56,694 bases of DNA from Bacillus sp. FJAT-27245 (GTDB lineage: Bacteria > Bacillota > Bacilli > Bacillales > Cytobacillaceae), in the NCBI RefSeq assembly GCF_001273955.1, contig NZ_LIGI01000001.1, positions 3,100,492 to 3,157,185 on the forward strand. The letters run 5' to 3'. Numbering within the stretch: position 1 is the stretch's first letter; every line of letters starts with the position of its first letter. The notes under the pieces are model-generated. The model saw nothing but the letters and a program-made list of their open reading frames with translations, was not told where the DNA came from and searched no databases. The position numbers and the translations under genes were made by a program. Positions 23,438-46,607 of the stretch are shown in pieces.

Positions 23438-23630
23438 GCTCTGATTTTGGAACAACTTTGGACACACGGACCTTGATTTTTCACTTTACTGTCCAAACAT
23501 CGAGCATCTTTGGACTCGCATCCCTGAAAAATTCACTTTGCTGTCCAAACATCAAGCATCTTTGGACACATACACACCGGGATTTAGAAAAGCTGTCCGA
23601 ACACAAGGTACCTAGCGACCCCCTCTGCTA
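23438..23630. repeat. Intergenic repeat array B (52-bp units)
   Basis: TGTCCAAA at 23490 and 23542 and TGTCCGAA at 23594 are each 52 bp apart; TTTGGAC occurs at 23457, 23509 and 23561, also 52 bp apart. TGTCCAAA and TTTGGACA form a dyad with an 11-base centre. ttcacttt(a/g)ctgtccaaac is shared between units. It lies between convergent SASP and ytwF genes. Confidence 0.85.
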
Positions 23631-44264: not shown

Positions 44265-45854
44265 ATGTTTGGTGTGCATAATCCAGAAACTCCGTTCAAG
44301 TTGCTGAATGAAGCAAACCTTCTAGTCCAGCTATCCGTTCCGGAATTAGTTGAAAAAGTGTTGAGCCGTGGTGAAGGGCTGCTGACATCGACAGGTGCAA
44401 TCAGCGTATCGACCGGTAAATATACAGGCCGTTCTCCTGAAGATAAGTTCATTGTCGAAGAAAAATCAAGCAGCGGCAAAATAGATTGGGGCCCAATTAA
44501 CCAGCCTATTTCAGAAGAAGCATTCTCTACTCTCTATAATAAAGTAATTGATTACTTAAAACAAAAAAATGAAATCTTCGTGTTTAATGGATTTGCTGGC
44601 GCGGATAAAAAATACAGGCTGCCAATCCAGGTTATCAATGAATACGCCTGGCACAACCTTTTCGCACACCAGCTATTCATCCGTCCCGAAGAGTCGGAAT
44701 TGCCTGGACATAATCTGGAATTCTCGATTATCTCCGCGCCCGGCTTCAAGGCCGACCCGGAAGTCGATGGAACGAAATCGGAAACGTTCATCATCATTTC
44801 TTTTGAAAAGCGAATCGTTCTGATCGGCGGAACGGAATATGCCGGAGAAATGAAGAAATCGATTTTTTCCGTTATGAATTATTTATTGCCCGAGGCTGGA
44901 ATCATGCCGATGCATTGTTCTGCCAACGTTGGGGTCGAAGGCGATGTAGCCCTGTTCTTCGGCTTGTCGGGCACAGGAAAAACGACCCTGTCCGCAGATG
45001 CGAACCGCCGCCTGATTGGTGACGACGAGCATGGCTGGTCCGCAAACGGCGTCTTCAATATCGAAGGTGGCTGCTATGCAAAAACGATCAACCTCAGCCG
45101 CGAAAAAGAACCGCAAATTTTTGATGCAATCTGCTTTGGTGCTGTCCTTGAAAACGTTGTCGTCAACCCGAACTCCCGCGCTGCCGACTATGATGACGGA
45201 TCGCTGACCGAGAATACGCGTGCCGCCTACCCGCTTGAAGCGATTAAGAACATCGTTTCGCCAAGCGTTGCCGGCCATCCGAACACAATTGTCTTTTTGA
45301 CGGCGGATGCTTTCGGTGTCTTGCCGCCAATTTCAAAACTGACGAAGGAACAGGCAATGTACCACTTCCTAAGCGGCTATACGTCCAAGTTGGCCGGAAC
45401 CGAGCGCGGCATTACCTCGCCGCAGGCAACGTTCTCCACCTGCTTCGGCGCGCCTTTCCTTCCACTCCCTGCCAAACGCTATGCGGAAATGCTCGGAGAA
45501 AAAATCCTTGAACACAACGCGCAGGTGTTTCTTGTCAACACTGGCTGGACCGGCGGTGAATATGGAACAGGCAGCCGGATGAAGCTTGCCTATACACGAG
45601 CGATGATCCAGGCCGCCCTTGAAGGCGAGTTAAGCAACATTGAAACGGTCCAGGACGACATTTTCGGCCTGCATGTTCCGCTTCATGTCCCTGGGGTTCC
45701 TGATGAAGTCCTGCAGCCGGAAAAGACTTGGGAGGACCCAAAAGCCTACCGCGTAAAGGCAATTGAACTTGCTGAAAAATTCCGCAGCAACTTCAATAAG
45801 TTTTCCGGCGTCGCTCCGGAGATCGCTGAAAAAGGCGGACCGATCATACAATAA
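44265..45854 (+). CDS. pckA: Phosphoenolpyruvate carboxykinase (ATP)
   Basis: A 529-residue gluconeogenic enzyme converting oxaloacetate and ATP to PEP. It has [13 protein letters not shown], the kinase-1a motif [13 protein letters not shown] (about 235), [18 protein letters not shown] and [12 protein letters not shown]. The ATG at 44265 follows AAAGGGG at rather long spacing. Terminated by a strong hairpin; convergent with ytmB. Confidence 0.96.
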
Positions 45855-45891: not shown

Positions 45892-45940
45892 AAAGCACGT
45901 GAGGAAAACGGAGCTGTTTCCCTCACGTGCTTTTGTTATT
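45892..45940 (+). terminator. Terminator of pckA
   Basis: GCACGTGAGG (45895-45904) / CCTCACGTGC (45921-45930) followed by TTTTGTTATT. Confidence 0.9.
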
Positions 45941-45952
45941 TCTTTATACTCG

Positions 45953-46290
45953 TGTGACATCTGGGACGAATTTTGGGCTTCTTTTGGCACTGTTCATGTA
46001 ATTTTTCTGACAACCTAACCCAATTTCAGCCTACGCTTGTCACATATCTAGGCTCTATCTGACAACCCAACCAAATTCCAGCCTCCGCTTGTCACATATC
46101 AGGGCTTTATTTGACAAGCTAATCCAATTCCTGCCTTCGCTTGTCACATATCGGGGATTTCTTACAACCACACCTGGATTTTGCCCTTTAGTTGCACTTA
46201 ACCGTGATTCGAGCGACACCCTAAACCAACTTTATACACGAGGTTATCACGCATCCAATTTTTGCAACACCCAATTCCAAACTGCTCTAC
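45953..46290. repeat. Intergenic repeat array C (six to seven 52-bp units)
   Basis: GACAA occurs at 46009, 46061 and 46113 and TTGTCACATATC at 46037, 46089 and 46141, all 52 bp apart. Degenerate units continue on both sides: GACAT 45956 and TTGGCACTG 45984; TACAA 46163 and TTGCACTT 46192; GACAC 46215 and TTATCAC 46244. TTGTCA and TGACAA face each other as a dyad in the middle units. The array fills the space between the pckA and ytmB terminators. Confidence 0.9.
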
Positions 46291-46292
46291 AA

Positions 46293-46323
46293 CAAAAAAA
46301 CGCCCCCGGCACGCCGCCGGGAG
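46293..46323 (-). terminator. Terminator of ytmB
   Basis: CCCCGGC (46304-46310) / GCCGGG (46316-46321); minus strand continues GTTTTTTTG. Confidence 0.87.
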
Positions 46324-46364
46324 CATTCATCATAGGCTTCTTTTCAACACTAAAACCATACCTA

Positions 46365-46607
46365 TCAATTCGGTGAGCTAAGTGCAATAAGCTCATACGT
46401 AATCCGTGTCTTGCCGCCTTCAAGTTCAACCTTCAGGATTTTTGCCGTCCCGCTCGAATCCGCTTCGATGGTCCGCCGGATATCGACAGGAATATCAATT
46501 GGATAGAGGCGGTATCCTTCTTTTTCCAAAAGGAATAAATTTTCTTCGAGCCTTTGCTCCTTGCCCTTGGTAACGATCATTGTATTCACTTCAAGTGGCA
46601 TTCCCAT
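46365..46607 (-). CDS. ytmB: DUF2584 protein YtmB
   Basis: An 80-residue soluble protein starting MGMPLEVNTMIVTKGKEQRL, matching YtmB (DUF2584). Function unknown. GGAGGG precedes ATG at 46607. It lies 37 bp after ytmA in the same direction. Confidence 0.85.
   Translation of the reverse strand: MGMPLEVNTMIVTKGKEQRLEENLFLLEKEGYRLYPIDIPVDIRRTIEADSSGTAKILKVELEGGKTRITYELIALSSPN

Follow-up and report, generated by a model that had tools for sequence, protein, structure and literature searches.

Arrays of 52-base repeats with a shared TGTC-N19-GACA plan in Bacillus sp. FJAT-27245 and related genomes

We describe here a common plan, TGTC-N19-GACA (27 bp) followed by 25 bp to the next such dyad, for arrays of a class of tandem repeats published with a constant length of 52 nucleotides and, in the available text of that description, no stated common sequence (Subirana and Messeguer 2021, PMC8161180). 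The resulting period of 52 is exact across genera. An array between the genes pckA and ytmB in the window (the whole stretch of 56,694 nucleotides that was analysed, from Bacillus sp. FJAT-27245) is a real, small and partly decayed member of this class of 52-base repeat arrays. The shared core and fixed geometry provide a searchable definition, a single 16-base pattern for which the reversed control is zero across 398 genomes. The core also separates conserved from free positions, and with the plan fixed it becomes practical to look for a binding protein and to test biochemically, and directly, for the protein or enzyme responsible for the arrays.

The array between pckA and ytmB and its sisters in the genome

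The array lies between two convergent genes, pckA (PEP carboxykinase, ORF at 44265..45854 on the + strand; PEPCK_ATP, PF01293, E 5.6e-229) and ytmB (DUF2584, ORF at 46365..46607 on the - strand; PF10763, E 1.7e-35). As the first-pass annotation had observed, it is bounded by the ends of these genes, sitting between two terminator-like hairpins. The left border, at the end of pckA (45892-45933), was recovered as an inverted repeat and by a terminator scan that lists it on the - strand only; the right one, that of ytmB (46298-46328, - strand), comes from the terminator scan. On the + strand the first hairpin, which pckA probably uses as its terminator, has a T-rich stretch (noted by eye) after it.

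Tandem Repeats Finder, proposed as a check in the first-pass annotation, recovers a period of 52 with 2.8 copies and 85% matches at 46006-46152, and a repeat search of the window finds three 52-nt copies spaced by exactly 52. Units were called by an outward walk with re-centring by up to 3 bases and scored against base-composition shuffles. Three good 52-bp units span 46037-46190 (starts at 46037, 46089 and 46141), their plan being a 29-bp dyad, TTGTCA-N17-TGACAA, and then a 23-bp linker. This dyad and linker are seen in the central unit 46037..46088, and the dyad is likewise intact in the next central unit, 46089..46140, which emerges from both the repeat search and the shuffle walk. The third unit (46141..46190, about 2 bases short) keeps its left half-site, the right one being broken. 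On the left, a flanking unit (45985..46036) whose left half-site has decayed to TGGCA still agrees with the central consensus at 33/52 positions (0/2000 shuffles), and on the right a decayed flanking unit (46191..46240; TTGCAC ... GCGACACC) does so at 25/52 (p 0.0025). The outermost units on the left (45932..45984, with a TGACA word at 45955 and its register off by one; 22/52, p 0.057) and on the right (46241..46290; TTATCAC ... GCAACACC; 21/52, p 0.11) are both decayed and not significant. Five units are therefore supported against shuffles, where six to seven had been counted, and the sixth and seventh hold only if decayed half-site words are trusted, half-sites being recognisable from ~45955 to ~46270. 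The alternation of TTGTCA and TGACAA dyads along the array was correctly described. The units are in register at the centre, where the steps are exactly 52, but not at the decayed ends, which slip by 1-2 bases (successive steps of 53, 52, 52, 52, 50 and 50). Of the three central units, called well conserved in the first-pass annotation, the third decays in its right half (30/52).

Within the genus, 2/8 genomes carry an array between pckA and ytmB: that of the window and one taken as N. piezotolerans. Identity between units is 0.62 within the window array (three units only), 0.76 within that of N. piezotolerans (seven units) and 0.58 between the two; concerted evolution at this locus may be suggested by these values and, because the difference between 0.62 and 0.58 is small, is put no higher than that.

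A second array with the same 52-bp plan and another arm class (TGTCCAAACATC...ATCTTTGGACA) occupies 23438..23620 of the window, with good units at 23490 and 23542 and one decayed unit on each side; under the exact core it yields a single dyad, at 23542. It belongs to the TGTCCAAA class, one of several arm classes that share one frame in this genome (TGTCCAAA/TTTGGACA, TGTCAGAAG/CTTCTGACA and the TGTCACAT type, the last being that of the pckA-ytmB array). The gap in which it lies separates a putative small acid-soluble spore protein gene (recognised by eye) from a gene on the opposite strand.

Used as a query against its own genome, the pckA-ytmB array matched 9 places, one of which, at 3862191-3862633, is an array of 9 units. 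A loose criterion gives 21 loci with at least two units. Exact TTGTCA-N17-TGACAA dyads number 15 in this genome (1 in the reversed control), and the two-unit TGTC-N19-GACA pattern has 26 exact matches and 59 with at most two mismatches (control 3). Arrays of period 52 are thus present at other loci of this genome, as they are in its relatives, and the refutation proposed in the first-pass annotation, an absence of arrays of this period from other convergent gaps of this or related genomes, is not upheld. Among the matches listed, 17/23 array-like loci (control 3) lie beyond the midpoint of the 4.58-Mb contig.

A plan common to arrays of several genera

Exact TTGTCA-N17-TGACAA dyads number 52, 125 and 213 in three genus mates (control 2, 0 and 0) and 0 to 2 in the four remaining ones. 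The exact two-unit TGTC-N19-GACA pattern occurs in all 8 genus genomes (20 to 337 matches each) and in 9 of the 398 genomes sampled from the class (up to 506 matches per genome), the reversed control being 0 in both sets, and was not found in the other 389 genomes of that sample. With three mismatches allowed, the two-unit pattern of TTGTCA-N17-TGACAA dyads is present in 37/193 family genomes belonging to 7/25 genera, with a control of 0 in every genome. A scan of 84,980 species genomes, which may omit the window's own, for two exact units of this dyad in register returned 48 stretches from seven species (Neobacillus notoginsengisoli, Bacillus sp. FJAT-27445, N. piezotolerans, Robertmurraya yapensis, R. 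kyonggiensis, Mesobacillus subterraneus and Niallia endozanthoxylica). A 400 kb sample of one genome had just 2 arrays, and the exact three-unit pattern was found in a single stretch of viral contigs and is thus rare there.

The 48 named stretches were selected as holding one or more exact two-unit matches. Within them, neighbouring exact half-site pairs have an inner spacer of 17 in 395/408 cases and an outer spacer of 23 in 400/421. Of 17 longer dyad-to-dyad steps within arrays, 11 are exact multiples of 52 and 14 deviate from such a multiple by at most a single base. Half-sites of other genera occupy the same frame (CTGTCA/TGACAG, ATGTCA/TGACAA, TTGTCC/GGACAA and CGGTCA/TGACCA among the arrays listed), and the TGTC-N19-GACA core is common to most of the arrays compared. 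Over 58 arrays with 427 interior units, the mean within-array difference is 0.013 for TGTC, 0.011 for GACA, 0.06-0.07 for the arms and 0.18 for both loop and linker, about 14 times the variation at TGTC and GACA; the invariance of these two words is partly built in, as the stretches and arrays were located through core patterns, an ascertainment that taking interior units by position only reduces without removing, and arrays within one genome are non-independent.

Next to TGTC and GACA, roughly 5 bases make up arms of imperfectly palindromic sequence, different from class to class; across 95 arrays up to four pair types occur at one arm position, and pairing fades past pair 9-19 or 10-18. Over these 95 arrays, 3.96 of 6 arm positions are complementary; reassigning the right arms over all arrays gives 2.42 (0/2000), and reassigning them within genomes gives 3.86 (303/2000 reach the observed value, orientation not fixed). 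With orientation fixed, the window's genome has a complementarity of 4.11 vs 2.98 (18 arrays, 0/5000) and a fourth genome, with 4 arrays, 4.50 vs 3.69 (634/5000). Within-genome permutation with orientation fixed revealed no excess in N. notoginsengisoli, FJAT-27445 and N. piezotolerans, as would be expected were each of these samples mostly of one class; an apparent shortfall in three genomes, seen when orientation was not fixed, vanished once it was, and the excess in the window's genome persisted. Complementarity across classes, without excess in genomes holding mostly a single class, therefore indicates arms that are palindromic by class and not rebuilt for each array, and upkeep of the palindrome in every single array need not be assumed. 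Complementarity spanning the linker is likewise above expectation, at pairs 31-51 and 32-50 (43/70 and 36/70 vs 22 and 22 expected, orientation not fixed). In N. notoginsengisoli (arrays L067-L111), 20/21 array consensus units have a mismatch (T.C or G.A) at position 8 of the 29-bp dyad, with T on one arm and G on the opposite one, whichever way round, among surrounding pairs that match; single units vary.

The first-pass annotation knew of no named family with such a plan, but the class has been published, as the 52 nt tandem repeats of Bacillus, and is reported in about 30% of Bacillus species among 176 genomes (PMC8161180); the window array is of this published kind. In our literature search, descriptions of the class were found only in papers of Subirana and Messeguer. 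The available text of the 2021 paper describes constant repeat length, no sequence conservation and a function that is called unknown, nucleoid proteins or small RNAs being suggested (PMC8161180). The terms '52 nt' and '52 bp' are absent from the available text of an earlier survey (PMC6749651), and no statement of the TGTC-N19-GACA core was found in the available parts of the published descriptions. Of the consensus repeats printed in Table 1 of PMC8161180, we compared the 21/27 that have 52-53 letters: 7/21 hold the core with at most one mismatch (5 exactly) and 14/21 are without it, and the class therefore has a common core in part. As far as the text of that paper is available, the likeness extends to a constant unit of 51-53 nt, which the arrays here share (the ends of the window array stepping by 53, 50 and 50), to several families per genome with short species-wide signals and their reverse, also found here, and to repeats that are non-coding, as here, and partially conserved between strains. 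Its SATFIND criterion calls for at least 4 repeats, 60% of equal length. With 3 good and 2 decayed units the window array is shorter and more decayed than this four-repeat threshold favours, and its sister at 3862191 has 9. The difference lies in the sequence, since the paper reports no sequence conservation and many of the arrays here share a core.

Among other known systems, REP/BIME elements (PMC2817692, PMC3733652, in their available text) are similarly short, palindromic, extragenic and dispersed in many copies, with several classes per genome, alternating orientation and frequent clustering. Unlike them, the arrays here have no unpaired GTAG tag, TGTC standing at both ends and inside the dyad, and have a tandem period of exactly 52; no RAYT gene flanked by arrays was found. 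Membership of the REP/RAYT system was rejected on the tag and on the flanks of RAYT genes, the 26 Y1_Tnp loci of the 8 genus genomes being without exact two-unit arrays within 1.5 kb. The CGTC-tagged REPs (PMC3733652, in its available text) come closer in being palindromic, in having no known transposase and in a terminal CGTC that is often TGTC, but they have an unpaired tag at one end, a stem of 8-9 bp and a loop of 4-5 bases, occur mostly in alpha-Proteobacteria and rarely cluster. In the arrays here TGTC is paired with GACA at both ends, the loop is longer in most, and the units are in tandem and in Bacilli. TGTC also stands at the outer end of the inverted half-sites of Tn3-type resolvases, whose sites measure 25-34 bp; the resolvase consensus seems to continue differently from most arms of the 52-bp arrays.

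Genomic placement and neighbouring genes

By simple ORF picks, and by the ORFs around the window array, the arrays are non-coding and intergenic. A gene is present on both sides of 86/95 arrays, the gap being co-directional in 55, convergent in 27 and divergent in 4; the corresponding numbers for the 175 background gaps (100 bp or longer) of these loci are 95, 25 and 55 (gene calls by simple ORF picks, without a gene finder). Arrays are thus rarer in divergent gaps (4/86 vs 55/175, p 2e-7) and commoner in convergent ones (27/86, p 0.0017). The association with convergent gaps that the first-pass annotation anticipated is borne out as a bias, not as a rule, most arrays being elsewhere. In co-directional gaps they are closer to the 3' end of the upstream gene (median 111 vs 200 bp, p 0.0007). 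This placement fits a role at 3' ends and equally fits tolerance.

Genes with a NERD (nuclease-related) domain adjoin arrays in six genomes; in the window's genome the NERD gene by an array does not reach the Pfam cut-off over the part that was scanned. Such genes are present in 191/193 family genomes, with 8-14 NERD matches per genus genome, and NERD was rejected as a partner of the arrays, as 0/30 NERD loci fetched (of 82 genus matches) have an exact two-unit array within 1.5 kb; a NERD-array link is doubtful. Lactate permease genes stand beside arrays in four genomes (by Pfam in three), and the place beside them is possibly an old orthologous array site.

Readings of the arrays

As 52 bp is about five helical turns of B-DNA and half-site centres are 23 and 29 bp apart, all half-sites should by simple arithmetic lie on about one face of the helix. 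We infer that the unit is read as double-stranded DNA, and the architecture points to recognition by a putative factor, whether this serves the host or propagates the repeat. The reading that we tentatively prefer, while giving it somewhat less than an even chance, is that an array is a DNA lattice of phased half-sites for a putative protein, REP/BIME-like in its behaviour and not a REP by defining features. Half-sites made of TGTC and an arm would alternate in orientation at distances of 23 and 29 bp, those pointing the same way recurring every 52 bp. The putative protein would bind the dyads cooperatively along one helix face at gene 3' ends, and the small nucleoprotein patch so formed might, in the way proposed for BIMEs, keep supercoils in place, for instance, or secure a loop between transcription units. 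Unequal exchange would lengthen and homogenise arrays, copies of which, mobile or converted, may take them to new 3' regions, and the window array would be one that is shrinking or decaying. The remark of the first-pass annotation that a period of five turns could suit a nucleoid protein is accordingly ranked first among the readings. In favour of a lattice are the exact spacing, its recurrence with other half-sites in other genera, the invariance of the core, the class-wise complementarity of the arms, the core in 7/21 printed consensus repeats, the avoidance of divergent gaps and the absence of strand bias. Against it, with several arm classes per genome, one protein would have to read little beyond TGTC/GACA or several paralogues would have to exist; hardly any excess of arm complementarity is left when right arms are reassigned within genomes; mere tolerance would also account for the avoidance of promoter regions; the folding of 58/95 arrays (see below) leaves room for a role of RNA or single-stranded DNA; and the 14/21 published families without the core, the 389/398 genomes without a two-unit match and the reported transcription of the B. 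coagulans 52-nt repeats (PMC8625621, in its available text) count against it as well. A broader proposal would unite the 52-nt satellites of Bacilli in a single system of phased TGTC/GACA lattices, bound by a dedicated putative protein or a small set of paralogues that forms local chromatin-like patches at the ends of transcription units, with arm classes that coevolve with the paralogues; we give it clearly less than an even chance.

The lattice is put only slightly ahead of a selfish satellite, which is nearly as likely and which we regard as a serious possibility. Such a satellite would be non-autonomous and without host role, spread to extragenic sites by a putative recombinase or transposase recognising TGTC...GACA and amplified in tandem, the spacing being the ruler of the enzyme, as with REPs and RAYTs. 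Related arrays at many loci per genome, classes common to several species, the widely differing load of sister species (the 20 to 337 exact two-unit matches given above), the restriction of the pckA-ytmB array to two genus genomes and the turnover of repeats from strain to strain described in the available text of PMC8161180 are all consistent with it. Next to the arrays no enzyme of this kind was detected: 0/26 Y1_Tnp loci of the 8 genus genomes lie within 1.5 kb of an exact two-unit array (single dyads near them number 1 vs 4 in the control). The flanks of arrays other than the two of the window gave 165 proteins of 100-650 residues. Alignment and family scans covered 147 of them, leaving aside 18 (17 belonging to L067-L076, the other to L241), and the 25 commonest of the 192 families in these 147 include no transposase or recombinase. 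The geometry retained in diverged units also speaks against this explanation.

That the arrays act as RNA, read-through from the upstream gene giving tandem hairpins for 3' end protection, as a protein sponge or as small RNAs, appears improbable. Hairpin folding gives a mean z of -2.96 over 95 arrays, 58/95 being below -2, values that are somewhat flattering as the better strand was taken and compared with base-composition shuffles of one strand; arms that are compensatory between classes, closeness to 3' ends and the B. coagulans transcripts fit as well. Several Mesobacillus-type arrays, however, fold scarcely better than shuffles, and on the gene strand of co-directional gaps there is no preference for G.T over A.C (152 vs 121 counts; 22 vs 20 arrays, 13 ties), hence no sign of selection on the transcript, and an RNA function is not favoured. 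A hairpin formed on the other dyad could not simultaneously use the complementary pairs 31-51 and 32-50 that span the linker. At the Rfam gathering score there is no match at the array, those in the window being a T-box and a SAM riboswitch elsewhere, and a strict 52-nt ruler is unexpected for RNA.

Neutral tandem repeats occur in many bacteria, and units here resemble one another a little more within a species than across species (small numbers), as the first-pass annotation's alternative of a simply expanding repeat would have it; yet a chance 52-bp segment multiplied by slippage or unequal crossing-over, with no recognition, is strongly disfavoured and very improbable, for it leaves unexplained the TGTC-N19-GACA/52 geometry in several genera with unrelated linkers (reversed control 0) and a variation patterned between core and loop or linker, the core words being the least variable by the 14-fold margin given above.

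The window also holds, at 778-1235, a 108-bp tandem repeat of 4.2 copies with 93% matches, whose length is divisible by three and which perhaps codes for a protein repeat.
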